From a virus: DNA of 64,000 bases. Positions 13,692-46,606 of the stretch are shown in pieces. A program made the translations under genes and the position numbers. The number at the start of each line of letters is the position of its first letter. The stretch's first letter is position 1. The notes beneath the pieces are model-generated. The model saw nothing but the letters and a program-made list of their open reading frames with translations. It did not search any database and was not told where the DNA came from. The DNA lies in the IMG/VR virus record IMGVR_UViG_3300036770_003728, positions 1 through 64,000 of that record; one strand, given 5' to 3'.

Positions 13692-15077
13692 TTAAACTTC
13701 TTTACGTTTGAGTCCAGCCAACATTTGCTTGAGATCTCGACTTTGAGCAGTAACCTGTACAGGAGCACTAGGTTCAGATTCAGAACTCACCGAACTGCGT
13801 GTTTTAATTTGATCCATGATACTACTAGTACTGCGTTTAGCAGTATCATCTGGAATTCCTGGGTCGCTGATACGCATGGTTTCCATGTTATAGTCCAAGT
13901 CCACTTTCATACCGACCCCAGTACTGGATCGTGACTTCATACACTGTATTTGATACTTGCCACGTTCACGCATGTTGCGACTGGTGAAGATACCAAACAC
14001 ATTATCTGCGGTATTGATCTTACTAATACCACCCGAGATATGACTATGGTCGAACTCAACTTCTTCCACTGCTGAACGATTCAGCTGCGACGCTGTGATC
14101 ATAAGCACTGCTAATTCTTTACTTAAATTACGCAGTTCTTCTGATACATACTTGTCTTTAACAAACAAGTCATTGGGACTTACCTTGGCTGACACTGGCA
14201 TTAATAAATCTAAATAATCAATCATAACAAAATCTACGCGATGTCCTGTCTGTATCTGATACTCTTTTAAGAAACTGCGTATGTCATTGATAGTACTTTG
14301 TGCCGGCAAATACTTGATACGATAACTACCTGCACGTTTACTGGCTACACGTATTTTTAGTGCAGTATCATCAATACTGCGCCTAATTTCTTTGGTACTA
14401 ATATCATTCAACATAGCATCAGTTCTTAAACTACAGAGTTCTTCACTGAGTTCTAGTGTAACATACACACCATGTAAGCCTTGTTGTAGCCAGTTTAAGG
14501 CTATGTTCATCATAACCAAGCTCTTACCAGATCCAGATCCACCTGCAAAGATATTAAGTTCGCCACGACTGAATCCACCGTACATGATCTTATCCATTTG
14601 TGGCCAACCTGTGCTGACTTGTCCACCCGAATTAAAATAACGATTGATTCGAGCTGCTGGATCGGCCCAGTAATCTGTGCCTAGGTCTTTGGTCAAGCTA
14701 ATCTGTACAGCATCCTTGATTAGCTTTTCAACAGGATTATAATCCCCTTTTTCTAGTAAATCTGCACTTTTAAGAATAGCACGTTCTAGTTCTTGCCTAC
14801 GAGTAAAACTTTCAAACTCCTCTAAAAACCAAACCTGATGTTCTGCACTTAGTTCTGTATGACGCAGCTCAATACCAGTTACCGCTGTGATTTGTTCTAG
14901 TGTAGGTAACACACTGTATTTGGCAGAATGTTGACTGATAAACTTGGCTGCTTCTCTCAGGCTGCGATCAAAGTTTTCGGGGTTGTAGATGTTTTGAACT
15001 CGCACAAAACACTGAGCATCACTTAGCATGATCTCCAAAAATAATTTCTGGAGTTCCACAGGATAATTTTTTTCCAT
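13692..15077 (-). CDS. 41: Replicative DNA helicase (T4 gp41, DnaB family)
   Basis: A 461-residue hexameric 5'-3' helicase. Walker A is AGGSGSGKS near residues 177-185; the DnaB-type Walker B strand is VDFVMIDYLDLL near 285-296; and ITASQLNR near 335 is the sensor segment. The N-terminal 130 residues are the helical primase-interaction region. The length matches T4 gp41 (475). The gene starts 1 base after the primase stop, so helicase and primase are made together, as expected for the primosome. The C-terminal 60 residues are polar and probably flexible. Confidence 0.95.
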   Translation of the reverse strand: MEKNYPVELQKLFLEIMLSDAQCFVRVQNIYNPENFDRSLREAAKFISQHSAKYSVLPTLEQITAVTGIELRHTELSAEHQVWFLEEFESFTRRQELERAILKSADLLEKGDYNPVEKLIKDAVQISLTKDLGTDYWADPAARINRYFNSGGQVSTGWPQMDKIMYGGFSRGELNIFAGGSGSGKSLVMMNIALNWLQQGLHGVYVTLELSEELCSLRTDAMLNDISTKEIRRSIDDTALKIRVASKRAGSYRIKYLPAQSTINDIRSFLKEYQIQTGHRVDFVMIDYLDLLMPVSAKVSPNDLFVKDKYVSEELRNLSKELAVLMITASQLNRSAVEEVEFDHSHISGGISKINTADNVFGIFTSRNMRERGKYQIQCMKSRSSTGVGMKVDLDYNMETMRISDPGIPDDTAKRSTSSIMDQIKTRSSVSSESEPSAPVQVTAQSRDLKQMLAGLKRKEV

Positions 15078-15078
15078 A

Positions 15079-16056
15079 TCAGTTATATAGTCGCTTGCGT
15101 TTTAGCTCGATTTTAAGACGACCTTTTTCTTTGCCCATTAAAATAGTTTTTATTACAAATAATTTACCATAACGTACCACTGCTTCATTGATGTCTTTAC
15201 AAGTTTCATGCCAAACCGGAAAGCTCACTGACCAACCATATTCAATGGCATTAGTGATTAATCGATCACCGGCACGATCGCTGTCAGGTACCAAAATTAC
15301 TTCACGTCCTAAACTGTCAATAAAATCAGCTTGAACTTCATTACACTCATTGCTAAGTACTGCTACTCCATCTACACTGATAGCATCAAAAGGTCCTTCA
15401 CTGACAATAACGAATTGTGCTTGCGGCAGTTGACGATCCAAATTAAACACATAGTTGGGTTCATACTGACTGTAGTACTTGGGTTTTACTGTAGGATCCC
15501 AAGATCTACTGGTGTACCCAATTAATTTATTTTTCCAAGTAAATGGAATAATTACTCGACGATTAAGATTATGATCAGTTTTGGCACTGACTAACAAAGG
15601 ATAACGATCCAAATCAATAGCTCTTTGTTGACAATATCGTAATGCCGTAGCATCTTGGTCCGCTAACTGAACATCATCTGGCAAGGCACGTGGCCGAAAT
15701 TCATAGGTTTCTGCTTCGGTACGTTCTGCAACATGCCCTACTATTTCTCTTACTCGAACTGCTTCAATGACTAATCTATTAATAGTAGACTCGTCGGCTC
15801 CTAGCCAAGATAATAATTTTCGAAATCGATACCCAAGATGCCATCCGGGACGGTAGCTGATTTTGAATTGGCAATTAAAACAATGATAGCTGATACCACC
15901 CTGGGTATCTGTAATTACTCCACCACGGCTACGTGTATCTGCTCTTTCTCCGCGATGTTGGCAACAAGGAGCGTTAAAACTGATCCAGCCGTTGGCAGCA
16001 CGACGTCGTCGCGCCGGCAATAGTTGTATAACAGCATCTTGAACAGAAGTTTGCAT
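15079..16056 (-). CDS. 61: DNA primase (T4 gp61)
   Basis: A 325-residue primase. A zinc-binding region with CCQHRGE (about 31-37) and YHCFNCQFK (about 57-65) precedes a TOPRIM domain: VSEGPFDAISVDG near 218-230 supplies the glutamate, and LVPDSDRAGDRL near 255-266 the D-x-D pair. It makes RNA primers on the lagging strand with gp41, encoded next. The ATG at 16056 is preceded by AGGA with no spacing, and both sit within a 16-bp RNA hairpin, which should hold translation down. Confidence 0.93.
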   Translation of the reverse strand: MQTSVQDAVIQLLPARRRRAANGWISFNAPCCQHRGERADTRSRGGVITDTQGGISYHCFNCQFKISYRPGWHLGYRFRKLLSWLGADESTINRLVIEAVRVREIVGHVAERTEAETYEFRPRALPDDVQLADQDATALRYCQQRAIDLDRYPLLVSAKTDHNLNRRVIIPFTWKNKLIGYTSRSWDPTVKPKYYSQYEPNYVFNLDRQLPQAQFVIVSEGPFDAISVDGVAVLSNECNEVQADFIDSLGREVILVPDSDRAGDRLITNAIEYGWSVSFPVWHETCKDINEAVVRYGKLFVIKTILMGKEKGRLKIELKRKRLYN

Positions 16057-16101: not shown

Positions 16102-16164
16102 TCAACCCGGTGGGCGCATGGCCCCTAGTGCTCTTGGTGGTGCTGTATTATCGATTACACTCAT
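16102..16164 (-). CDS. 20-codon proline-rich frame coupled to the large fibre gene
   Basis: ATG at 16164 overlaps the fibre stop (ATGA) and opens MSVIDNTAPPRALGAMRPPG followed by TGA. The gap between fibre and primase would otherwise be empty. Coupling and the tidy fit suggest it is translated; alternatively a frameshift could append it to the fibre. At 20 residues no function can be read, and it may be chance. Confidence 0.4.
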   Translation of the reverse strand: MSVIDNTAPPRALGAMRPPG

Positions 16165-19100
16165 TCGTACATTCTCCAAGTAGTTCCTGTCCAAAATAAT
16201 CCAATGCTGTCGCCATTGGTATTAATAACCAATGTACCACTGCTGGAATTACTGGTATTGGTAATTGTGGTTCCACTACCAGCTAAAATCACAAAACTGT
16301 TAGCAGTGTAAGCACCCCCGGCATCGGCAAAAAATACTGCATCTCCTGGGGCCACTGCTGGTGGGACCGGTAAGGTAGCTGTAATTGATCCGTTGTTGGT
16401 GTTAATACCATATCTACGGTTGGGTATCACTGCAAAATTAGCTGTCCTGATTTCAAATTTTTGTTCTAGGTTATTGGCTGGTGGCTGGACTCGCTCATTA
16501 CCGTCAACATTGATTGCCCCAGACATCGCTGCATGCACTGTACAACGATAACGCAGTCTGGCTGGTGCATTCATTGGCACAGTGAATATGATTTCGCCTG
16601 AAGCTGCACCATTATTGGTTACACCAACGGTGTATGCAGTTAGTGTTGGCCCATCTTCGCTGCCAGTCTCTTCCACAATCTGGAATGGATGTCCTCCGCC
16701 ACTGTTGTTAATGAATCTATAGGTTTCACCACGACGTAAATTCAATGTTGGATTGTTAGTGGCTGTGGCAAAGAATCTGCCATCAGCAGCAAAAACATAT
16801 GCGCTGCTGCCATTGGCCGTGATTGTAAACACTGCCGGACGATTAATACCGGGGTTATTTTGTACCTTGACATTGGCTGTAGCAAAGTTTACATTGCCGG
16901 CTACAGTGTCGACTGGTACCATCTGTCCTTCAGGAGTAAACACAATTGCCTGCGGATTTGGTCTTGATGGTGCTGGCGGTGGAACAAAAGCAATTAACCC
17001 AGTGTCAGCATCAGTCTTGATCAAGGCATTGCCAAAATTAATGGTACTGCCGCTTAAGTACAAGTCTCTCCAACGTCGTGTGTCTGATCCTAAGTCATAG
17101 GTTACATTACTGGATGGAATCAAATTGGCTGAAATATTACCATCTAGATAATTAGGTACATCAGTATAAGCAGGTATAGTAGGTGTACCAGTTAGATCAG
17201 CATAAGCACCAGTTCTTGCCACATCAGCAAATCCAGTTAAACCTGCACCGCTGCCATTGATATTGCCACTGAAACTGATATTGCCTGCTGCTACGTTTCC
17301 TGTATTGGTTAACAAGTAGTCGGCCACATTAGCATTAGCATATACCTGAGACTGTAGTGTAACTATAGCAGATTGCTGTGACGCTGCATTGGCACTTAAA
17401 CTATCTATAGTGGTCTGCTGGCTTTCACTATTGGCTGTTAATGTAGCCAATGATGTTGCTTGAGCAGCAGCATTAGCCACCAAATCGGTAATTTCTGTGG
17501 CTTGAGCAGCGGCATTAGCACTTAAACTATCTATAGTGGTTTGCTGGCTTTCACTATTGGCTGTTAATGTAGCCAATGATGTTGTTTGAGCAGAAGCATT
17601 AGCCCACAAATTATTAATTTCTGTGGCCTGAGCAGCAGCATTAGCTGTCAATGTATCTATAGTGGTTTGCTGGCTTTCACTATTGGCTGTTAATGTAGCC
17701 AATGATGTTGTTTGAGCAGCAGCATTAGCCCACAAATTAGTAATTTCTGTGGCTTGAGCAGCAGCATTAGCTATCCATGCTACATTGGCTGCTATAACAT
17801 TAGCAGCAATATTACCTTCAGCAGCAGTAGCACGCACTGTTTCAGTACTAACCGCAGCATTGATAATGGTATCAACGCTTTGATAGTTGGCAATAATTTC
17901 TGCCAAACTGTTTAGTGCCGTAGCATCAACATTATTTAGAATACTATCAATTTGAGTTTGTAGATTGGCTGTATTGGCTTGCCAGGCTGTGTTGGCTGCG
18001 GTAAATGTAGCATTAACTGAAGTTATCACTGCCGATATGTTACTGGTGCGTGCCACATTGGCAGCATCAATATTGGCTTGTAACTGAGTAATAAACTCTG
18101 GCCAAAACGCAGTGGTTTGAACACGACCATCTAAGAATTTAACATTGCCCACATAAGGCAAATTAGCACCTGCACTAGTGGTAACTTGTAAGCCATTACC
18201 AAAATCAGAGCTAACTACAGTGTTACCCATATTAATGGTATTGCCTACGTATGCAGTACGGAACGCTGCTACACTAGATCCTAAGTCGTGCGCTGCTGTG
18301 GTTTTGGGTATAACATTACCAGGTACATTAACATTACCTGTGCGCTCTAAATCCATACTCAACAGTGTGTTAGTCAACTTACTAACAATGCTTTGAGCCT
18401 TGAATCGTAGTTTGTAGGTATACAAGTATTGATAGGTAAACACAGTGCCTGGTACATTAACCAATGGGCCCGGCATGGCTTGATCTACAGCAAATGTTAT
18501 AGGACGATAAAACACTGCTGGGCTGCTGCCTGCTACCTGTGTTAAGCTACCAATGCTGCCTTGGCTACGAATTACCAGGCTATTAACAAACGGAGTTAAT
18601 ACTTCGATAACTTCACCACCGCTGAATGTAACCAATAAGTTATACAGTTCAGTATTTTCGTAAGCATAGAAAATCACAGTACTACTGGTAGTCCATTCAA
18701 TGGCTTCTGCACCAATTTGGTCGGCTAGTTCTCTGGTAACTATATCTACATTACCATAATCACCGACTCTAACAGTAGCGTTACCCATGTGCAGACCAGT
18801 GTTGGCAATATAAATATTGCTCCAACGCAGACTTTCACTACCCAAATCAAATTGATCTGTGCTTAGTGGTGTAACATTGCCTGGAAGTGTAAGATTGCCA
18901 GTGGCTGTTAGGTTAGCATAGAAACTGCCGTTAACAAGATTGTTTTCAGTATTGTTGCCCAGCTGGCTTATAACCGAGTTAATGTTACTGCGTAGGTTGC
19001 CTTCTTCGGAGATAGCACGAGCTGTTTCTGCTGCTATACTGGTTGCAAGAGCAGCAGCATTACTAAGTCTAGTGCTTTCATTGGCTAATATACTAGTAAC

Positions 19101-22055
19101 TATAGCACTGGCATTGGCTACACGAGCTGCACTTTCACTATTAATAGCACTTTGTAAACTGCTGGCATTGGCAATACTTGCTACATTAGCAGCATCGATG
19201 TTGGCCTGTAGTGCTATGTCTGCTGCTAATCTTGTAGCAGCTTCAGCATTGATATTAGCAGTGATTGCCGAAGTGGTTCCTGAACCTAAGCTGGTAATTT
19301 GAGCTTGGAGTGCAGTTTCAGCAGCAGTGGCTCTTGTAGTTTCTGTGATTACGCTTTGAGCTAGGGCTGCTGCATTGGCAGTTCTATTAGCGGTCTCGGT
19401 AGTAATAAAGCTAGGCAAGAACGCCGTGGTCTGTACAGTACTGTCCGGGAATGTTACATTACCTTTTACAGCAATTGGTGTACCACCACTGGTCTCAGCA
19501 CGTAGTCCATTTACTGGATCAACTGTTAAACTGGCTGTGCCAAAGTATACAGTACTGCTACTAATAAACAAACTACGGAAGGCCTGGCTAGCACTACCTA
19601 AATCTTGAGTTAAATGATTTTTTGGTAGTATATGACCTGGTACTTCGAATGTACCACCAACTGCATTAAGATTAGCACTGTATCCACCAGCCAGTAACTG
19701 ATGTTCTGTACCTTGTAGAACAGTAACATTAGCATGTATGGCTGCTTCAGCAGCAGTAGCTCTAGCTGTTTCAGCTGTGACACTGGCAGCAAGAGCGCTG
19801 GCATTGGCGATTCGGTTCGCCGATTCAGTGTTGAGATTATTGGTTATTGTGGTATCAGCCAGTATACGTGCTGATTCTTCTGTGTTGACATCATTGACAC
19901 GGTTGGTAATTTCCAAAGCAATGTTGGCAAATATGGCAGCAACGTTATTAGTCAATGCTGTGTTGGTATTTGTAACTTGTGTTTGTAAGCTGGTTTCGGT
20001 TGTGGTAGCACGAGTTACTTCAGCAGTGATATTACTTTGTAGATTAACGTCTGCTGCTGCACGAGTAGCTGCTTCTGCATTAATAGCAGCAGTTAATGCA
20101 ATATTAGCTGCATTCAAACTACCTGTCAGTACACTGGTATTGCTGATTCGTGTAGCAGTTTCAGTGTTTAGGTTGGCCTGTACAGCTGATTCAGCAGCTT
20201 GAGCACGACTACGCTCTAAATTAATGTCCGTATTGAGCTGTGTGCTCAGTGCTGTGATAGCACCTTGCAGCGTATTATCCGATGCTTGGAAAGCGGCTAC
20301 CACTTCAACCAAACTGTTTAGCGCCGTGGCATCTACGTTAACCAAAACATTGTTGATTTGCGTTTGAAGATTAGTAACATTAGCTACACGTTGTACGATT
20401 TCATTGTCTAACGCGGCTGTTAATACACTAACATTTGCAATTCTAGCAATATTAGCAGCATCTAACGAAGCCTGTAGTGCTGTATCACCAGCTGCTCTAG
20501 CAATGTTAGCTGCGGTTAAGGCCTGTAAAGTTGTAGCACTGTTGGCTTGCCATGCTGTATTAGTTGTATTAATGTTGTTCTGCAACGAAGTAATCACTGC
20601 GCTGACATTGCTTTCTCTGGCTGTGTTAGCAGCAGCGAAAGTGTTATTCATATTAGTGATCACTGCACTGATGTTACTGATTCGATCAATGTTGGCCGCA
20701 GTGAACGTATTATTCATACTGGTAATAACTGCGCTGATATTGCTAACACGATCAATGTTAGCTTGGTTAAATGTGTTATTAACCGAAGTAATCACTGCGC
20801 TGATGTTAGTGGTACGATCCAAATTGGCCTGCGTAAAGGTACTATTAACCAAAGTGATCACGCTGCTGATGTTGCTGATTCTGGCTACATTAGCACTGTC
20901 TAAGTTATTCTGTAATAATGTTTCAGCAGCGACGGCACGAGTTCGTTCTACAATAACATTGGCTATACGAGCACTGCTTTCAGCTGCCAAGTTAGCAGTA
21001 TGACTAATATTAGCAGCAATCAGGCTGGCTGCTAATGCACTGGTATTGGCTACCCTGGCCACGCTCTCAGCAGTGATATTAGCTCTGAGATTACCTTCTT
21101 CGCTAATAGCACGACTGGTTTCAATGGTCAAGTTACTCTTGATATTGTTATCTTCAACAATACGTTGAGCACGTTCGGTATTAATGTCTAGTTGTAAGTT
21201 ACCCTCGGCGCTGATCGCACGATTGGCTTCCACAATCACATTAGCTATTCTAGCTGCACTTTCTGCTGCCAAGTTGGCAGTCATACTTACATTAGCAGCC
21301 TGCAAACTAGCGGCCAATGCACTAGCATTGGCTGTACGAGCAGCGGTTTCAGCTGCAATATTAGCCTGTAAATTAACATCACCGGTTATTCTAGCACTGA
21401 TTTCGACGGACAAATTGGCTGCGTTTTGAGCTGCCACTACACGAATTGCAGTATCTTCTGCCAATCTTATATTAGCTTCAGCTACTACTGCATTAGCAGT
21501 AGCACTAATATTGCTGTTGATTAGGTTATCATTGGCTAAACGAATATTAGCTTCATTATTAATAGCTGTTTGTAGAGCTGCTTCGGCAGCATAGGCTCTA
21601 ACTGTTTCTGCACCGATATTACTTTGAAGAGCCGAAACTGAATTTGCTACAAATCCGTAAAAGTCAGGATCATTGTTGATACTTGTTGCAATGCCTTCAA
21701 GGGTACTAAGCTCAATAGGATAAACAGCACCAATGGTAGCCACTAAATTACTATTGACTTCTTCTACTCTGCCTAAGGTATTGGCCAAGTTGGCCAATAT
21801 AACTACCAGACCTTGTTGCACATACAGGTTACTATAGAACTCGCTATAGGAATTGGCCTGCATGTCGACCACACCGTCGGTGGGAATTGGGGCACCGCCC
21901 GGCGTTACTCCATCATGTATACGCAAGGTTTTAAGCGTGGTATCCACTGTGATCTCTCCCAGTGGGCCTACATAGGTGCTGCTTGTAGCTAGATTACCTC
22001 TTTTTAATAGAATCTGTCTAGCATCAAGGCTGATAACTTGGTTGTTAATAGTCAT
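16161..22055 (-). CDS. Giant repetitive tail fibre with C-terminal cupredoxin-like domain
   Basis: A 1964-residue protein. Residues 8-55 hold a fibre-attachment repeat (QILLKRGNLA, LRIHDGVTPGGAPIPT). Most of the rest is heptad-rich A/N/T/E sequence (RAVAAETLLQNNLDSANVA style) typical of trimeric fibre shafts, broken by three or four copies of a small beta domain (LGSASQAFRSLFISS, LGSESLRWSNIYIAN, LGSDTRRWRDLYLSG). Residues about 1745-1855 look like a plastocyanin-type cupredoxin with ligands His1789, Cys1838, His1841 and Met1844. The last 100 residues are a beta-rich tip. Likely a long host-recognition fibre; copper binding is inferred. Confidence 0.88.
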   Translation of the reverse strand: MTINNQVISLDARQILLKRGNLATSSTYVGPLGEITVDTTLKTLRIHDGVTPGGAPIPTDGVVDMQANSYSEFYSNLYVQQGLVVILANLANTLGRVEEVNSNLVATIGAVYPIELSTLEGIATSINNDPDFYGFVANSVSALQSNIGAETVRAYAAEAALQTAINNEANIRLANDNLINSNISATANAVVAEANIRLAEDTAIRVVAAQNAANLSVEISARITGDVNLQANIAAETAARTANASALAASLQAANVSMTANLAAESAARIANVIVEANRAISAEGNLQLDINTERAQRIVEDNNIKSNLTIETSRAISEEGNLRANITAESVARVANTSALAASLIAANISHTANLAAESSARIANVIVERTRAVAAETLLQNNLDSANVARISNISSVITLVNSTFTQANLDRTTNISAVITSVNNTFNQANIDRVSNISAVITSMNNTFTAANIDRISNISAVITNMNNTFAAANTARESNVSAVITSLQNNINTTNTAWQANSATTLQALTAANIARAAGDTALQASLDAANIARIANVSVLTAALDNEIVQRVANVTNLQTQINNVLVNVDATALNSLVEVVAAFQASDNTLQGAITALSTQLNTDINLERSRAQAAESAVQANLNTETATRISNTSVLTGSLNAANIALTAAINAEAATRAAADVNLQSNITAEVTRATTTETSLQTQVTNTNTALTNNVAAIFANIALEITNRVNDVNTEESARILADTTITNNLNTESANRIANASALAASVTAETARATAAEAAIHANVTVLQGTEHQLLAGGYSANLNAVGGTFEVPGHILPKNHLTQDLGSASQAFRSLFISSSTVYFGTASLTVDPVNGLRAETSGGTPIAVKGNVTFPDSTVQTTAFLPSFITTETANRTANAAALAQSVITETTRATAAETALQAQITSLGSGTTSAITANINAEAATRLAADIALQANIDAANVASIANASSLQSAINSESAARVANASAIVTSILANESTRLSNAAALATSIAAETARAISEEGNLRSNINSVISQLGNNTENNLVNGSFYANLTATGNLTLPGNVTPLSTDQFDLGSESLRWSNIYIANTGLHMGNATVRVGDYGNVDIVTRELADQIGAEAIEWTTSSTVIFYAYENTELYNLLVTFSGGEVIEVLTPFVNSLVIRSQGSIGSLTQVAGSSPAVFYRPITFAVDQAMPGPLVNVPGTVFTYQYLYTYKLRFKAQSIVSKLTNTLLSMDLERTGNVNVPGNVIPKTTAAHDLGSSVAAFRTAYVGNTINMGNTVVSSDFGNGLQVTTSAGANLPYVGNVKFLDGRVQTTAFWPEFITQLQANIDAANVARTSNISAVITSVNATFTAANTAWQANTANLQTQIDSILNNVDATALNSLAEIIANYQSVDTIINAAVSTETVRATAAEGNIAANVIAANVAWIANAAAQATEITNLWANAAAQTTSLATLTANSESQQTTIDTLTANAAAQATEINNLWANASAQTTSLATLTANSESQQTTIDSLSANAAAQATEITDLVANAAAQATSLATLTANSESQQTTIDSLSANAASQQSAIVTLQSQVYANANVADYLLTNTGNVAAGNISFSGNINGSGAGLTGFADVARTGAYADLTGTPTIPAYTDVPNYLDGNISANLIPSSNVTYDLGSDTRRWRDLYLSGSTINFGNALIKTDADTGLIAFVPPPAPSRPNPQAIVFTPEGQMVPVDTVAGNVNFATANVKVQNNPGINRPAVFTITANGSSAYVFAADGRFFATATNNPTLNLRRGETYRFINNSGGGHPFQIVEETGSEDGPTLTAYTVGVTNNGAASGEIIFTVPMNAPARLRYRCTVHAAMSGAINVDGNERVQPPANNLEQKFEIRTANFAVIPNRRYGINTNNGSITATLPVPPAVAPGDAVFFADAGGAYTANSFVILAGSGTTITNTSNSSSGTLVINTNGDSIGLFWTGTTWRMYE
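17395..17772 (-). repeat. Three 126-bp tandem repeats in fibre gene
   Basis: Three near-identical copies with a period of 126 bases (42 codons), seen from CTATCTATAGTGGT recurring at about 17401, 17527 and 17653. Each unit encodes a coiled-coil block containing NAAAQATEI and SLATLTANSESQQTT. High DNA identity points to recent duplication. Confidence 0.85.
20550..20880 (-). repeat. Five 66-bp repeats (22-residue units) in fibre gene
   Basis: Five successive 22-residue units of the form ISAVITSVNNTFNQANIDRV(S/T)N, encoded by about 66 bases each, more diverged than the 126-bp set. The regular hydrophobic spacing fits a trimeric coiled coil. Confidence 0.75.
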
Positions 22056-22543: not shown

Positions 22544-22569
22544 AGTTTGGATTGTAATCATTATTTTAC

Positions 22570-22577
22570 TATTTATT
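22570..22577 (-). promoter_or_regulatory. Late promoter AATAAATA before fibre operon
   Basis: The minus strand reads AATAAATA; the transcript should start near 22564, serving the 157-residue protein and the giant fibre. It faces the plus-strand box at 22536-22543. Confidence 0.6.
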
Positions 22578-22582
22578 GCAAA

Positions 22583-22951
22583 GTGGAAGAAATTAAAAAG
22601 CTGCTCGAACAGTATCCGTTCATAACTTATCTTATTTACGGCGGCAACGAATACATCGGAATCATACAAAATTCCGACGAACTTATCACAACGATTTATG
22701 ATTTTGGCAGCTTGAAAGACCCTGATCAAAAACAAAAGTTCTTGGACCTAGGTGAACAATGGTGGTGGGAGTCAAATCGCATGATCCCTATCAACGTTTT
22801 TCTCAAACGTGATTGGTCAGAATTCAAGGCCTGCGTAAAGACCATGAACAGCAAAGACGTAGATATACGCTTTGGTCCTCAGGTTAATCTTAAAGAAATG
22901 GCTGCTAAACGCAGCAAACGCAGATCAATTACTTTGGTTCGTAAGCTCTAA
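22583..22951 (+). CDS. Conserved small phage protein on the plus strand (122 aa)
   Basis: GTG at 22583 opens a 122-residue protein (first residues EEIKKLLEQYPFITY) with YGGNEYIGIIQNSD, LGEQWWWESNRMIPINVFL and a basic end (KRSKRRSITLVRKL). I recall related uncharacterised proteins in aquatic T4-like phages that start MEEIK, which supports this start over TTG 22547. The W-W-W cluster with a preceding beta strand suggests an Sm-like or Tudor-like barrel, but this is a guess. Its 3' end overlaps the convergent DnaE-like gene by 27 bases. Confidence 0.75.
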   Translation: MEEIKKLLEQYPFITYLIYGGNEYIGIIQNSDELITTIYDFGSLKDPDQKQKFLDLGEQWWWESNRMIPINVFLKRDWSEFKACVKTMNSKDVDIRFGPQVNLKEMAAKRSKRRSITLVRKL

Positions 22952-23500
22952 CAAATTCATGTGCACTGCTACTAGATGAGCATAGCTCACAGCATGCGCT
23001 TTTTTGAAATAATACCCAGATTCTGGCTTTTGCCATATGGTCTCAGCTACTTCACGCCATGGACGACCTATTAGGTGTCTTTTACCCGGCCTTATAATAG
23101 CCAAGAACATGGCCAACCTGGCTATAGAATCCACTGGCTCAGGCATACGACCTAAGGTATCCCAATGATTACCAATATGAATTAACTGTGCACAGAATTC
23201 TTGATCCAACAGTTTGTGCCAATTCGGTTTTTGTTGCATCAGTTCCGTTAACTGTTGTTCACTGTGAATTTGATTATATACTGATACATTCAAAAAATCT
23301 AGTTTAATATACCCACGTTGTTCAGCACTGCGAAAGTCAATAGTAGCAGTGTTGGTTATAGGATCATGTGGAATCTCAGTGACATAAACACCAGTATTAT
23401 GTGGAACATTGCCATCCAGGCTAGCACGCCTATACTGAATATGGCGTAAGATACTGGCACGATCACCAAAGTCAATGTCTACATCGCTGGTAAATTTCAT
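22925..23500 (-). CDS. Miniature DnaE-like protein (DNA polymerase III alpha palm motifs)
   Basis: A 191-residue protein. DVDIDFGDR at 6-14 matches the DnaE active-site strand (PDFDIDF), keeping both aspartates; KLDFLNVSVY at 67-75 matches FDFLGL with the third catalytic aspartate; AIIRPGKRH at 134-142 matches the ALYRPGP segment; and FKKAHAVSYAHL at 165-176 matches FNKSHAAAYAL. The order agrees with DnaE, whose full length is over 1000 residues. PHP, fingers, tau-binding and OB regions are absent. The start ATG overlaps the stop of the zinc-finger gene. Function unknown: nucleotide or DNA binding is likelier than processive synthesis. Confidence 0.7.
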   Translation of the reverse strand: MKFTSDVDIDFGDRASILRHIQYRRASLDGNVPHNTGVYVTEIPHDPITNTATIDFRSAEQRGYIKLDFLNVSVYNQIHSEQQLTELMQQKPNWHKLLDQEFCAQLIHIGNHWDTLGRMPEPVDSIARLAMFLAIIRPGKRHLIGRPWREVAETIWQKPESGYYFKKAHAVSYAHLVAVHMNLLELTNQSN

Positions 23501-24177
23501 AGTCCACCTAATTCTAAAATTTGTCTAGCGAATGCAACATCATCACTTAGATCTTTGAACTTGGATTGCCAGTGTGCAGGATCAATGAACTCAATCACAG
23601 TGGCTACTTGATCAGTATTTAATCGACTTAAAAAGTCAATCCCACTGTCACAGTTGTACACAGCCCAAGCACTAATACGACCAGTGGTGATATGATAGCA
23701 TATACGATTTTCGTTAACCAGTCTAAAGTAATCCCTATACCCATTCTTGTACTCAGGGTGTTGATACATATAGTCTACCATGGTTTCCATACTACGTTCA
23801 AGAGCATCTTTAACTGATTCTTTACGTAAGTATTCTACTAACCAACTAGTGTAAAACGTATCTGAAGTCCAACGATCTAACGGACGATTATTTTTGAGCA
23901 GCCAACGAGTGTACGCAGCAAGATTTACACAGTGTACACTATGACAGTACCTACCAAACTTTACAAAGGCTGTGTAATAACTACTAGCTACGAAATCTTG
24001 GTAATCACGTTTACGTCCACTTTGTGTGGTTTCATAAAAGATCCTGTAGGCTTGCAGTGCCCATTGTACCCCAATTTCGTTCTGCTGTTGATGTCTGCGC
24101 TTGGGTTCACAACTGTGACTGGTCAGCGTGGTTTCTTTAGCATAGGTTTTATGACAGTATTGGCATTCAAAAGGCAT
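23497..24177 (-). CDS. C2H2 zinc-finger-bearing conserved phage protein
   Basis: A 226-residue protein. FECQYCHKTYAKETTLTSHSCE at residues 3-24 is a C2H2-like finger (C-x2-C, then H with C or H after) adapted to nucleic acid or protein contact. The remaining 200 residues are helical and aromatic (AYRIFYETTQSGRKRDYQDF, YTRWLLKNNRPLDRW). It overlaps the DnaE-like gene by 4 bases and the upstream gene by 11, a fixed-looking three-gene block in the replication region. I infer a DNA transaction role; the main domain is not recognised. Confidence 0.7.
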   Translation of the reverse strand: MPFECQYCHKTYAKETTLTSHSCEPKRRHQQQNEIGVQWALQAYRIFYETTQSGRKRDYQDFVASSYYTAFVKFGRYCHSVHCVNLAAYTRWLLKNNRPLDRWTSDTFYTSWLVEYLRKESVKDALERSMETMVDYMYQHPEYKNGYRDYFRLVNENRICYHITTGRISAWAVYNCDSGIDFLSRLNTDQVATVIEFIDPAHWQSKFKDLSDDVAFARQILELGGL

Positions 24178-24622
24178 TTCTTATTTCTTTGTCGTCCCAA
24201 CCCAATGATTGTAGATAGGCTTCTAGATCTTTACGATTAGTGTTATTGACCAATATAGCCAATTCTTCTCTATTAAGATCTGGAAACTGTTCGGCTAGAA
24301 CTTTTTGTATAGGATTAGTCTTGTGCCGACTACCCATCCAATAGTGCTTTTGACGACCCATGTCTGGGCTCACTGACGTACACAGTAACCACTGCAACTT
24401 AGGATGGCGCCCAATGGCAAAAAAGTCTTGATTAACACGATCGTTTTGAGCTCGCAAATACCATTCTTGTAAATCTCTGTTGCCTTCTACACTGGCAGCA
24501 TACTTCATCATTAAGTACGTACTAAACTTTTTACGTTCTTCGTCAGTGAGTTCATCATAGAACCCACGGTCTTTGGTATCCAGTGCTGCCAGCTCTTGTG
24601 CTAGTGTTAGCTTGGCGCTCAT
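24167..24622 (-). CDS. Possible clamp-loader small subunit (T4 gp62-like), tentative
   Basis: A 151-residue all-helical protein: FYDELTDEERKKFSTYLMMKY near 21-42, HPKLQWLLCTSVSP near 78-91, and LQSLGWDDKEIRNAF at the end. The layout (helices, then a K-L-Q run with a tryptophan and basic patch) reminds me of gp62 clamp-loader subunits of marine T4-like phages, but gp44 and gp45 are not in the window to support it. Its ATG shares a base with the stop of the 169-residue gene. An unrelated helical protein is equally possible. Confidence 0.5.
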   Translation of the reverse strand: MSAKLTLAQELAALDTKDRGFYDELTDEERKKFSTYLMMKYAASVEGNRDLQEWYLRAQNDRVNQDFFAIGRHPKLQWLLCTSVSPDMGRQKHYWMGSRHKTNPIQKVLAEQFPDLNREELAILVNNTNRKDLEAYLQSLGWDDKEIRNAF

Positions 24623-25131
24623 TACCAGGCCCTTCCAAAATCAATGACTTCGCTAACTCTACTGATATCTTTAACAAAGTATGCACACAGTGGACTATCG
24701 GTATCAGTTTCCAAAGGCACAGCCAATAATTGGCCGGCTTTGAGTTTAGGAAAATACCACTTGACATCTTGATAAATGTCCACTATTTCAACTTGATGAA
24801 ACTCGGGCCTGTAACTTTTAATAGGGTTAAAACAAAACGCTGAAAAGCCACGATCATTAATGGAAGTCAATGGCACCACTTCAAGATCACCGATATCGGT
24901 TTCACCAATTAGTAATTGCCAATCCACTGGCATTTTTACTGTGTGCTCACCTATGCGTAGCACTAGAGCCGGGCTATTAAAACTTTCTAAGAAGATTAAA
25001 GGTATAAAGAAATAATCCGGAGTTTTAGGATCTGAATTATCCAATATACAAAAACGTAGATCTTCGATTTCATCGGGGATCTCATTAAGGTCGTAACTAC
25101 GATTGGTATCTAGGTTTAGTATTCTTGACAT
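24622..25131 (-). CDS. Conserved T4-like phage protein (169 aa)
   Basis: A 169-residue beta-rich protein: MSRILNLDTNRSYDL, FFIPLIFLESFNSPALVLRIG near 43-64, TVKMPVDWQLLIGE near 68-81, and IVDIYQDVKWYFPKL near 121-135. I recall very similar proteins in other aquatic T4-like phages without an assigned role. The beta-strand pattern with a long hydrophobic core hints at a barrel or clamp-like fold. It sits 8 bases after UvsW, in the replication block. No catalytic residues are evident. Confidence 0.65.
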   Translation of the reverse strand: MSRILNLDTNRSYDLNEIPDEIEDLRFCILDNSDPKTPDYFFIPLIFLESFNSPALVLRIGEHTVKMPVDWQLLIGETDIGDLEVVPLTSINDRGFSAFCFNPIKSYRPEFHQVEIVDIYQDVKWYFPKLKAGQLLAVPLETDTDSPLCAYFVKDISRVSEVIDFGRAW

Positions 25132-25139
25132 AATTGTTA

Positions 25140-26597
25140 TTATAGATAATTTACACGCTCAAGGTCAAATGGATAATTTGCCTCTCGATAAAAATTCTTA
25201 CGCTGTGTTAGGTGCCGCTTGGCAAATTTGCAACTACTGGTTATGTCCCAGATTTGGACGAAGTCTTTGTCTGACGCTCGCCTAATACCACGCCCAATGC
25301 TTTGTATAACACGTACAAAACTTTTACCAGGCTCAACAAGCACAAGATTAAAAATCCTAGGAATATTGATGCCAACTGCTGCCACACCGTAGGTTGCGAC
25401 AATAACTTTATCTGCTGACGTTGCCACTTCGTCATATTCTTCCTGCCTATCAGTGCTTTTGGTAGCACCATTTACAAACACAGCATCACGGATGCCGGCA
25501 ACTAGTGCCTGCCCGGCGGCCACACGATCAATTAGGATTAATGTATTGCCAGTACCACGTATACGTTCTACTAAACTACTGATATAGTCTAGTCTATCTG
25601 CATTTTCTAACAGATATTTAAGCTCGCTTTGATAATTTGTAAACTCTTTGTGATCTTGTAATTGTACAATGTTTACATGACAATTGGCCAGCACACCTTG
25701 TTCTTGTAACTCGCTGGCGCTGAGTTGTCCTACCACTGGACCCAAAGTACAGGTTAAAGCCAGTCGATTATAATCTTCTTTGGGTACTGTACCTGTCAAG
25801 CCCCAACGTATAGGCACATGACTCATTACACCTGTTAACAATGTTTTAAGGGCATCAGCTTTGGCCATATGCACTTCGTCGACAATCACGCATATCACAT
25901 CTTGTAAAAATTCTTCTATGCTGATTTCAACTTCGTGACTTTTGGTATTTTTAAGTAGTATATTAAGACTTTGCCATGTGCAGATAGTATGCTGCCGGCC
26001 AAATTCTTTACGATCACCAAAGTATACACCAACATCTAATCCCATGTTCACGTAGTCACGCTCGGTTTGGGTAACCAAGCTCTTGTTAGGCACTATGACC
26101 ACGCTGCGTCCATAAGGTTGCACACTTGTGCTAAGAGCAGCGGTCATGATGGTCTTGCCTGCTCCTGTGGCTACTTCCTGTATACACTGTGGTGTGGATA
26201 AGAATCTGTTGACGATCTCAACTTGGTAATCTCTCAGTAAGATAGGTTCATGTTGATTAGGATGACCCGTAGGCCAAGCACGACTGGCGAAACTTTGCTC
26301 ATTGACCTGTGGGAATTCAAAACTGGTACGATACGACCTAAGATCTTCTAAATCTATGTCATATCCGTGTGCTTCTATCACAGGAATAATTTCTGGCAAC
26401 AGATTAATATAAGTAGCACCAGCCAAACTAAAATAGCTGACTTTACCATCCCATCTCCCAAGTCGCACTGCTGGCAAATATCGAGCACCTGGTATTTCAA
26501 ATTTGAATTGATTGGTTAATGTACGTCGTAGGTTAACATCCAAGCCTTCAACTTTAACATTAACTTCGTCACGTATGAATAATTTACATTCCGGCAT
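25140..26597 (-). CDS. uvsW: UvsW helicase (SF2 recombination and fork-reversal helicase)
   Basis: A 485-residue superfamily 2 helicase. An N-terminal DNA-binding domain (residues 1-110, IRDEVNVKVEGLDVNLRR) is followed by the Q-like LRDYQVEIV near 121, Walker A ATGAGKTIM near 142-150, DEVHMAKA (DEVH box) near 238-245, GLTGTVPKED motif III near 263, and motif VI SIGRGIRRASDKD near 428-440. The length and order match T4 UvsW (about 500). It should unwind or reverse branched DNA and R-loops, shifting origin-driven to recombination-driven replication. ATG overlaps the upstream gene by 14 bases. Confidence 0.93.
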   Translation of the reverse strand: MPECKLFIRDEVNVKVEGLDVNLRRTLTNQFKFEIPGARYLPAVRLGRWDGKVSYFSLAGATYINLLPEIIPVIEAHGYDIDLEDLRSYRTSFEFPQVNEQSFASRAWPTGHPNQHEPILLRDYQVEIVNRFLSTPQCIQEVATGAGKTIMTAALSTSVQPYGRSVVIVPNKSLVTQTERDYVNMGLDVGVYFGDRKEFGRQHTICTWQSLNILLKNTKSHEVEISIEEFLQDVICVIVDEVHMAKADALKTLLTGVMSHVPIRWGLTGTVPKEDYNRLALTCTLGPVVGQLSASELQEQGVLANCHVNIVQLQDHKEFTNYQSELKYLLENADRLDYISSLVERIRGTGNTLILIDRVAAGQALVAGIRDAVFVNGATKSTDRQEEYDEVATSADKVIVATYGVAAVGINIPRIFNLVLVEPGKSFVRVIQSIGRGIRRASDKDFVQIWDITSSCKFAKRHLTQRKNFYREANYPFDLERVNYL

Positions 26598-44093: not shown

Positions 44094-44272
44094 TTGGTCT
44101 TCCTTGATTTCAATGAACGAGCTAAACGTAACACAATATTCTCTACTTTGTCAAGCTCATGTCTGATTTCAATTTGCTCTTTCAAATCTCGCAAACTGTT
44201 GTCAATTAGCTCTATGTATCTTATTAATTTATCTACTCTAGCTTCAAGCTCATCAAATCTATCTGGCATCAC
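44090..44272 (-). CDS. Small coiled-coil protein (60 aa)
   Basis: A 60-residue protein with one long helix of heptad type (FDELEARVDKLIRYIELIDN, then SLRDLKEQIEIRHELDKVEN) and a basic end (SLKSRKTK). It overlaps uvsX and the next gene by 4 bases each. It likely forms dimers or trimers; in this setting it may be a recombination accessory, but nothing in the sequence proves that. Confidence 0.6.
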   Translation of the reverse strand: MMPDRFDELEARVDKLIRYIELIDNSLRDLKEQIEIRHELDKVENIVLRLARSLKSRKTK

Positions 44273-45342
44273 TCGGCTTCGGCACTATCTCCCGAAGGCT
44301 CCTCTTTCGTTACCTGGTGTGGATTAGCCACAAAATCGGCCATAACCCTGTCCAGACTCGAATCCTCATTGCGCTCCCAGGCTTTACGAAACTGCTTAAT
44401 CACAGTGCCGTCTGCCAATGTATATTTAAGACTATTGCCATCTTTTTGAAGTAAGCCTTTTCCTTCAAACAAGTCTACCAAGCCTGAGTAGGGATTCATC
44501 CCAGTCTCATACGGAATTTTGACTTGTACACTTTCAAAAGGTTTGGCATATCGTGTTTTCATAATCTTACAGGCTGATCGAATGCCTTTGACTTCGGATA
44601 TCTTATTGCCATCCTCATCCTCTTTGAGCTTGAGTTTACGCATGGCTACTACAATCGAACTAGCATAGATAAAGCCTTGCCCACCTGAGATCTTGTCATC
44701 CGGATCAAACATGTCTTGGCTGGCATAGGTATGATTAGTTGCTACTAGGCCAATGTTAAGACTGCCAAACATATTCACACAGTTTCTAACCAATGCTGTT
44801 AGTGCTTTGGGCTTTCGTCCTAGGTCACCTTTAAGGTCGCCTGCGTCAAACTGATTCACATCAGTGGGAGTCAACAACATGCCCAAGCTATCTAATACAA
44901 ACAAGACTTTGGGACGTGACTCTTCAGGTAATGTTTTGTACTCTTTTACGAACTCACTAATCATTTTAGCCACATCATCAATCATGGCCATGTTGAGTTT
45001 GAGTAATTTACTTTCATCAGTATCAACGCCTAGTGCTTTAAGCCAGTCTTCGTCTAGTGCGTTTTCAGTATCAATAAGGATAGGATAGATACCTTGTTGT
45101 TGGGCGTGCCTAATCAAATTACCACTACAGATAAAACTCTTACCGGCACCAGATTCGCCAGCAAATACCGTTACTTTACCAAGAGGCACTCCCCTGTCAA
45201 AAGCACCGGAAATTAGGTAGTTTAAGGCGTAATTTCCGGTGGAAATCCAGTCTGTAGGGTCGTTAAATCCAATGCTAACGCCTTCAATGCTCTTAGTTAT
45301 GCTTTTGCGAAATTTCGACAAATCAAAAGGTCTTTGTGCCAT
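44269..45342 (-). CDS. uvsX: UvsX recombinase (RecA family)
   Basis: A 357-residue recombinase. Walker A is FAGESGAGKSFICSG near 57-71, Walker B is KVLFVLDSLGMLLTP near 145-159, and GLVATNHTYASQDMF near 196-210 is the L1/L2-side segment. The length is close to T4 UvsX (391). It loads on single-stranded DNA and drives strand exchange in recombination-dependent replication, with UvsW and gp32 as encoded partners. The C-terminal tail is acidic (EEPSGDSAEAE), as in the family. Confidence 0.95.
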   Translation of the reverse strand: MAQRPFDLSKFRKSITKSIEGVSIGFNDPTDWISTGNYALNYLISGAFDRGVPLGKVTVFAGESGAGKSFICSGNLIRHAQQQGIYPILIDTENALDEDWLKALGVDTDESKLLKLNMAMIDDVAKMISEFVKEYKTLPEESRPKVLFVLDSLGMLLTPTDVNQFDAGDLKGDLGRKPKALTALVRNCVNMFGSLNIGLVATNHTYASQDMFDPDDKISGGQGFIYASSIVVAMRKLKLKEDEDGNKISEVKGIRSACKIMKTRYAKPFESVQVKIPYETGMNPYSGLVDLFEGKGLLQKDGNSLKYTLADGTVIKQFRKAWERNEDSSLDRVMADFVANPHQVTKEEPSGDSAEAE

Positions 45343-45613: not shown

Positions 45614-46606
45614 TTACTTTTGACGGTTGCGAATCATCGCAAGAATATCTTCGGCACGTTGGCTAGAACTCTTGGAGTCTGCTGCTGGTGCCGGAGTTTT
45701 CACTGGGGCAGTAGGTGCCACATCATCTTCATCTGCATCCATGTCCTCTACAGAGGCACGGGCTGGGGCAGCAGGTGCAGGCGAAGCTGCTTCAGTGGGC
45801 GCGGTTCCAACATCCAAACCAGGTGGCTTGTAATATTGCCCCCAACGCTCTGCATCATATTCCTTCCCGTCTACAGAAGCTTCAAACATTTCCTTGATGA
45901 TCCTAAGTTCAACATCACCAGGTTTCTTGGGTAAGAACTCACTGAGATTGAACAGTCCATATTTTTCGATTGCCGCTAAATCGTCTGAAGCCAGCGCCGT
46001 CTCACGACGTGCCCATTTACTAGTGCTGTAATCAGCATAACCACCTTTGCTGGTTTTACTTACAGTAAAATCCAAACCATTCTCATAATCTGTAGGAAGA
46101 TTCTCAAGCTCAGGATCCATTAATGAACCTTTAATAAGGTTAAAGATCTGCGGGCTAATAATAAACCTGCGGATGGGATTTTCAGGAACCCTGTCCTCTT
46201 TCAGCGGATTATCGCGCACAAACCCTTGAAAAAGATATGACTTTTTCTTCCAATACTTACGACCCATTTCTTCCATACTTGGATCTTTGAACCAGGTACG
46301 AACTTCGGCCAGGATCGGGCAAGGAGTATCCTTACCATACATTTCCATACAGGGCACTTGAACAATCACTGGACGGCTATCTGCCTGTCCTTTGATGCCA
46401 GCAAACGGCAATTTAATCATTGCACGTTCAACCCAAAAGAAAGTATTTTTGGAGTCGGCGTCTGGGAGGAAACGAATTTTGGCCGAGGAACCTTCTTCGA
46501 TGTTCCAGTGTGGGTAGATCCCACCGTCGCCATTTGTTGAACCGGATGAGCCACGGTTCTCGGCTGCTGCTAATTTTGCGCGAATTTCTGCTAGTGTAGT
46601 TGCCAT
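45614..46606 (-). CDS. 32: Single-stranded DNA-binding protein (T4 gp32)
   Basis: A 330-residue protein with the gp32 plan: N-terminal basic region (IRAKLAAAENRG, residues 6-17), an OB core from about 30 to 250 with a zinc-site region including CMEMYGKDTPCPILAEV near 86-102, and an acidic, alanine/proline-rich C-terminal tail (SVEDMDADEDD) for protein partners. It coats ssDNA and organises replication and recombination proteins. It has its own promoter and a 66-base leader with AAAGGA near the ATG, the setting in which T4 gp32 autoregulates. Confidence 0.94.
   Translation of the reverse strand: MATTLAEIRAKLAAAENRGSSGSTNGDGGIYPHWNIEEGSSAKIRFLPDADSKNTFFWVERAMIKLPFAGIKGQADSRPVIVQVPCMEMYGKDTPCPILAEVRTWFKDPSMEEMGRKYWKKKSYLFQGFVRDNPLKEDRVPENPIRRFIISPQIFNLIKGSLMDPELENLPTDYENGLDFTVSKTSKGGYADYSTSKWARRETALASDDLAAIEKYGLFNLSEFLPKKPGDVELRIIKEMFEASVDGKEYDAERWGQYYKPPGLDVGTAPTEAASPAPAAPARASVEDMDADEDDVAPTAPVKTPAPAADSKSSSQRAEDILAMIRNRQK

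Follow-up and report, generated by a model that had tools for sequence, protein, structure and literature searches.

Bacterial DnaE exceeds 1000 residues, and the presence of a DnaE-like reading frame of 191 residues in viral DNA raises the question of whether so short a protein is a polymerase in its own right, what is left of a decaying gene, or one part of a larger active site. The frame lies in a 64,000-nucleotide stretch (positions 1 to 64,000 of IMG/VR record IMGVR_UViG_3300036770_003728, hereafter the window) and had been described in an earlier note as a remnant or miniature of DnaE in which the palm active site was kept and everything else removed.

A DnaE-like frame and its active-site residues

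The open reading frame, referred to here as fragment B, carries the four landmarks reported for it, in DnaE order: SDVDIDF (residues 5–11), KLDFLNV (66–72), IIRPGK (135–140), and FKKAHAVSYA (165–174). A fifth match, HNTGVYV (34–40), corresponds to HAGGVV of Escherichia coli DnaE (from H511). Profile searches place the frame among DnaE-type proteins: phrog_11778, annotated "DNA polymerase," matches with an E-value of 5.7e-55, and there are matches to two long phage profiles of the DnaE type, phrog_405 (E 5.5e-6) and phrog_11165 (E 4.3e-4). The 191-residue protein by itself gave no DnaE match in Pfam and no match in the PDB by phmmer; PDB matches of the fragment B profile were weak (E 0.12–0.97), and the Pfam family DNA_pol3_finger scored above its cut-off for fragment B of XacN1 and RAS14. 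An assignment as arginine succinyltransferase was rejected, as Pfam AstA (E 0.23) and the NCBIfam model (E 0.087) fall below any cut-off and the fold gives no support. By tblastn, fragment B is found in 63 phage records, each with at least 80% coverage and all below 60% identity, among them Atu_ph07, Phosso, PA5oct, Paride, RaK2, 121Q, GAP32, CBB, XacN1, and 141-kb Alishewanella phages; a further 153 viral-contig stretches match, 80 of which were kept.

An AlphaFold model of fragment B (pLDDT 89.8, pTM 0.78) was built from alignment A1, whose 48 rows comprise the window and 47 of the 80 fragment B loci after removal of near-identical, X-containing, and short sequences; alignments A2 and A3 hold 25 of 47 loci of the partner gene described below and 23 chosen fragment B sequences, respectively. 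In a Foldseek search with the model, Pol III alpha entries fill the first seven rows (best E 5.1e-3, probability 0.98), and unrelated rows start at E 1.9. With VIA-align, model residues 1–191 superpose on residues 459–841 of 3e0d, which we take to be Taq Pol III alpha (Z 9.2, 3.7 Å, 185 residues aligned), and residues 1–190 on 397–781 of E. coli 4jom (Z 8.0, 4.1 Å, 181 aligned); the first row other than Pol III alpha, a glyoxalase/FosA-like protein, reaches Z 3.4 over 43 residues. No unrelated fold is thus predicted, and fragment B is DnaE by its residues and by its modeled fold.

Residue conservation was counted in 72 distinct fragment B sequences out of 89 loci (locus L071, cut at a contig end, was missed by the reading-frame rule). 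Twelve positions are invariant in 72/72: D6, D8, D10, D68, H34, G37, K66, R137, P138, K140, H169, and Y173 (Table 1). In E. coli DnaE, the PDFDVDF motif begins at P400, and D401, D403, and D555 are the catalytic residues of alpha. Their equivalents, all kept, are Asp6, Asp8, and Asp68. The expectation that the active-site aspartates would be conserved is thereby borne out, but the numbering Asp8, Asp10, and Asp68 given previously is not; Asp10 is as invariant as the others but lies outside the equivalents of the catalytic triad.

Table 1. Location of fragment B, its conserved residues, and replication-related genes in the window
Feature	Position	Strand	Remarks
DnaB-like replicative helicase	13692..15077	-	
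DNA primase	15079..16056	-	Further downstream of B on the same strand; primase also follows B in several related records
phrog_11637 gene	22547..22951	+	Convergent, overlaps 3' end of B; 81/82 loci with room
Fragment B (phrog_11778)	22925..23500	-	C-terminal half of split minimal Pol III alpha; 191 aa, ATG start
FKKAHAVSYA (165–174)	22979..23008	-	Counterpart of DnaE FNKSHSAAYA (756–765); H169 and Y173 in 72/72
RPGK (137–140)	23081..23092	-	Counterpart of DnaE RPGP (639–642), local profile alignment; R137, P138, K140 in 72/72
Asp68 codon	23297..23299	-	Counterpart of D555 (local profile alignment to residues 542–642 of E. coli DnaE); 72/72
HNTGVYV (34–40)	23381..23401	-	Counterpart of DnaE HAGGVV (from H511); H34 and G37 in 72/72
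DVDID codons (Asp6 to Asp10)	23471..23485	-	Asp6/Asp8 = E. coli D401/D403, Asp10 = D405; each in 72/72 distinct homologues
phrog_11058 gene	23497..24177	-	Directly upstream of B, stop overlaps B start (ATGA); homologue in 85/87 B loci with room
phrog_11758 gene	24167..24622	-	82/83 loci with room
phrog_11279 gene	24622..25131	-	64/72 loci with room
UvsW-type helicase	25140..26597	-	54/60 loci with room
UvsX-like protein	44269–45342		
Single-strand binding protein	45614–46606		

Fragment B begins at the DxDxD strand and is without the GS (GRGS) motif. The distance from D403 to the conserved His (H511) is 108 residues in DnaE and 26 in fragment B, and that from the Arg of RPG (R639) to the His of FNKSH (H760) is 121 in DnaE and 32 in fragment B; the former stretch is presumably the position of the thumb and the latter the middle of the fingers. 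This spacing indicates that fragment B has lost the thumb and a large part of the fingers, and the capacity to bind primer-template may have been lost with them. The PHP, thumb, OB, and clamp/tau-binding domains are absent from the 191 residues. The description of a miniature DnaE that retains the metal-binding aspartates of the palm, with most of DnaE gone, is apt. The removal of "everything else" goes too far, as the RPG and FKKAHA elements of the fingers are kept and the model aligns over almost its full length, and the miniature is not self-contained: fragment B is only the C-terminal half of a catalytic core whose GS motif lies, in related phages, in a second gene.

The putative partner gene and the split point

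That second gene, fragment A, is a small open reading frame found elsewhere in these phages by a Pfam DNA_pol3_alpha search of nine related records. It corresponds to phrog_11127, encodes about 160–190 residues, and covers the DnaE segment that starts at the GS motif and stops just short of DxDxD; all three members scanned with DNA_pol3_alpha score above the cut-off. In Atu_ph07, fragment A has 177 residues, and its C-terminal end consists of GVGRGS, a further ~30 residues, and then FLE. The GxGRGS motif is invariant in 36/36 distinct sequences (out of 55 loci, with L096 dropped as an unsplit protein). The model of fragment A (pLDDT 88.5) retrieves only Pol III alpha-type polymerases among the top 15 Foldseek rows, with a best E-value of 1.8e-3; for both fragments, the Foldseek E-values are modest.

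The two models can be placed on the same solved chains. Fragment A aligns with residues 295–458 of 3e0d, 306–416 of Mycobacterium tuberculosis 7pu7, 277–397 of E. coli 4jom, and 822–966 of 9qrl, which from its numbering appears to be of the PolC type. The end of A and the start of B fall at residues 458 and 459 of 3e0d, 416 and 417 of 7pu7, 397 and 397 of 4jom, and 966 and 968 of 9qrl. As the ends of A and the starts of B coincide on all of these chains, the two modeled fragments are a single palm divided at the same conserved position, immediately ahead of the DxDxD strand. Homology to DnaE, an invariant active site, and an exact split point are what the sequences and the models, taken together, establish, along with the joint presence of the two genes in 17 long records and the replication-gene neighborhood described below.

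A third DnaE fragment encoded elsewhere was sought and rejected: no further finger-domain piece occurs outside fragment B in the 11 named phages, where the PF17657 finger matches (2/11) fall within fragment B itself. Downstream of fragment A, five loci (L093, L094, L095, L098, and L099) share two recurrent genes, one for an uncharacterized protein of ~105–150 residues and one for a short GroES/Hsp10-like protein, the latter named by eye.

Shared occurrence and gene neighborhood

Profiles of both fragments were run over 25 records picked for holding A or B. Seventeen of these records are 141 kb or longer, 11 from named phages and 6 from uncultivated viruses, and both fragments are present in 17/17, a count that, given this choice of records, is the presence of the other half where one half is found. 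The two genes are on the same strand in 17/17, with 11 to 230 kb between them along the record as it is written. In Slicko01, RAS14, and XacN1, the distance is 11–15 kb and A lies upstream, as its sequence would in an unsplit gene.

The eight shorter records are all below 135 kb. Two (G000 and G004) hold B only, four (G010–G013) hold A only, and two uncultivated ones (G003 and G005) hold B together with a weak match to the A profile that lies in a longer DnaE-like frame. In G003, this is a compact unsplit protein of 565 residues (L096:1438–3135, about 7 kb from its B) that matches phrog_405 with an E-value of 1.1e-63; in G005, the longer frame is at L097. The fragment A query may likewise reach phages with unsplit DnaE, and its 98 records were not counted as split-type. 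One of the two records with B only is that of the window itself; it is 76 kb long, probably a fragment, and gave no match to fragment A and none to a family B polymerase.

Fragment B sits in a conserved block with the order UvsW, phrog_11279, phrog_11758, phrog_11058, fragment B, and convergent phrog_11637, after which many phages have structural genes and then primase and helicase. Two phages, the Alishewanella phage and XacN1, clearly depart from this arrangement. In XacN1, the place between UvsW and the clamp loader is taken by fragment A instead of B, which follows 15 kb downstream; it seems that the positions of the two fragments within the replication block vary with the lineage (XacN1 and RAS14). 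The window keeps the block order, with a gene for 1964 residues between fragment B and the primase and helicase. The product of this gene (16161–22055, minus strand) is repetitive and probably structural; relatives have much shorter genes there, labelled virion structural. For the phrog_11058 gene directly upstream of B, a role as a zinc-finger accessory subunit was considered from its weak C2H2-like start; the pattern occurs in 2/67 distinct homologues and is therefore not a feature of the family.

The UvsW-type helicase, the UvsX-like protein, and the single-strand binding protein give the window a T4-like recombination-replication setting. The family B polymerase expected of such phages is indeed present in the relatives, in 11/11 named phages. 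In Atu_ph07 and Paride, the family B matches (PF00136) fall in two separate open frames; for MIJ3, a family B polymerase that is split with an intein is already reported (PMC6892783). A DnaQ-type exonuclease with an RNase_T domain occurs in 8/18 records and in 0/7 of the uncultivated ones, a distribution that rules out an exonuclease of the Pol III epsilon type as a fixed partner.

Probable function of the pair and related systems

Because A and B occur together and the active-site parts of each complement those of the other, a two-subunit nucleotidyltransferase core is the simplest reading. Fragment A would supply the GRGS nucleotide-binding motif of a pol-beta-type palm, and fragment B would form the metal- and template-side half, contributing two elements of the fingers besides the DxDxD strand, the HxTG strand, and the third Asp. 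Most likely the two proteins bind each other non-covalently and so restore a single palm in which the finger is very short and the thumb, PHP, OB, and clamp-binding domains are missing. We put at about 0.7 the probability that the subunits assemble into a single thumb-less nucleotidyltransferase or polymerase, a split minimal family C core; assembly, catalysis, and the exact job of the putative enzyme are what we infer from the sequences and models. The missing thumb and clamp-binding parts would point to a distributive enzyme that works alongside the family B replicase and makes short stretches of DNA, whether by extending primers, by filling gaps, or in recombination-dependent synthesis, and the kept finger residues (RPxK and H..Y) argue for synthesis directed by a template. 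Counted against a two-subunit polymerase are the missing thumb and finger stretches, the modest Foldseek E-values, the occurrence in no more than 8/18 records of the DnaQ-type exonuclease that a Pol III-like core would lead one to expect, and the lack of a match to fragment A or a family B polymerase in the 76-kb record.

A captured host or phage dnaE gene that is decaying into fragment B would account for the small size of the protein and for its annotation as hypothetical in many phage records. The selection data already contradict such decay: median dN/dS is 0.11 in the 36 pairs (of 666, from 37 sequences) that are unsaturated and hence usable, the frame is open in 89/89 loci inspected (a contig end truncates one), and the catalytic residues are invariant in homologues down to 32% identity. 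Together with the strongly conserved operon, these observations rule out the remnant of the earlier note, and we give its probability as close to nil. That fragment B acts by itself, as the earlier note proposed, whether as a stand-alone mini-polymerase, as an enzyme for end filling or translesion synthesis, or as a decoy that engages the partners of host DnaE, is very improbable. It would be in keeping with the separate genes, 11 to 230 kb apart as the records are written, and with the single half in most records below 135 kb; however, these are fragments from which absence cannot be read, fragment A accompanies B in all 17 long records, and B is without the GS motif. The C-terminal partner-binding regions of DnaE are not in B either, and nothing points to competition with the host enzyme.

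More serious, though still unlikely, is an A–B pair that forms a complex of the nucleotidyltransferase fold and does not polymerize on a template, serving instead as a regulatory or scaffolding subunit of the replisome or transferring single nucleotides to the ends of DNA, RNA, or protein. The absence of the thumb and of most of the fingers is consistent with this notion, as is the family B replicase of all 11 named phages, whereas the invariance in 72/72 of the metal ligands, the motifs, and the finger residues RPxK and H..Y suggests that contacts with template and nucleotide still matter. Within the preferred reading of a split polymerase core, a more specific role can be proposed tentatively and with some doubt: a two-chain, thumb-less polymerase of ~360 residues, among the smallest template-directed ones known, might act in a manner resembling Pol alpha, briefly extending primase products or the ends of UvsX D-loops before the family B polymerase takes over. 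If so, the series of UvsW, three uncharacterized genes, fragment B, primase, and helicase would be a dedicated initiation module.

The pair is not without precedent. For jumbo phages of group 2.2, Iyer et al. 2021 (PMC7824862) described computationally a split Pol III alpha of minimal size that coexists with a family B polymerase, with template-directed synthesis by the split pair put forward as a proposal. The window gene is the same as the C-terminal member of that pair, which carries the Mg-binding Asp and the template-binding element, and it is a new member of the split Pol III alpha family known from 2021. That survey concerned jumbo phages; here, the pair is found also in the 141-kb Alishewanella phage Slicko01 and in uncultivated virus records. 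Single pieces had been noted in genome papers, CBB_328 as a truncated alpha subunit (PMC5259590) and gp316 of Atu_ph07 (PMC6102473). In the literature searched, which did not take in most subscription papers, no experimental test of either half was found. The measurements made here concern where the junction falls on four solved chains, how often each residue is conserved, how regularly the two halves occur together, and how well the operon is kept; to these come the occurrence of the pair in a 141-kb phage and the corrected numbering of the aspartates.

Apart from such split forms, the polymerases of family C are large replicases of bacteria. Fragment B shares with bacterial Pol III alpha (DnaE/PolC) a homologous palm and parts of the fingers, with the residues in the same order; the bacterial enzyme has the whole palm, GS motif and Asp triad included, on one chain, whereas in the split pair ~1000 residues and most domains are absent and the palm is spread over two genes. 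Why many phages with a family B replicase should keep intact a second polymerase, a split and thumb-less family C version, is the question that follows, and with it how small a family C core can be and still work. Both proteins are short, and they lend themselves to a clear-cut prediction: each half should be inactive alone and the two together active.

The compact phrog_405 protein of 565 residues described above resembles fragment B in its HxGG and KxD motifs and in having no PHP-sized N-terminal part before the palm; unlike B, it has both palm halves on one chain, with about 90 residues between DxDxD and HxGG. Alignment of the fragment B profile with this protein by hhalign is weak (probability 3%, E 0.014). 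In cyanobacteria, DnaE is likewise encoded by two genes, the halves being joined by a split intein (PMC3919608). In contrast to these rejoined halves, the phage A frames end at, or a few residues from, the FLK/FLE position, which would leave no room for an intein.
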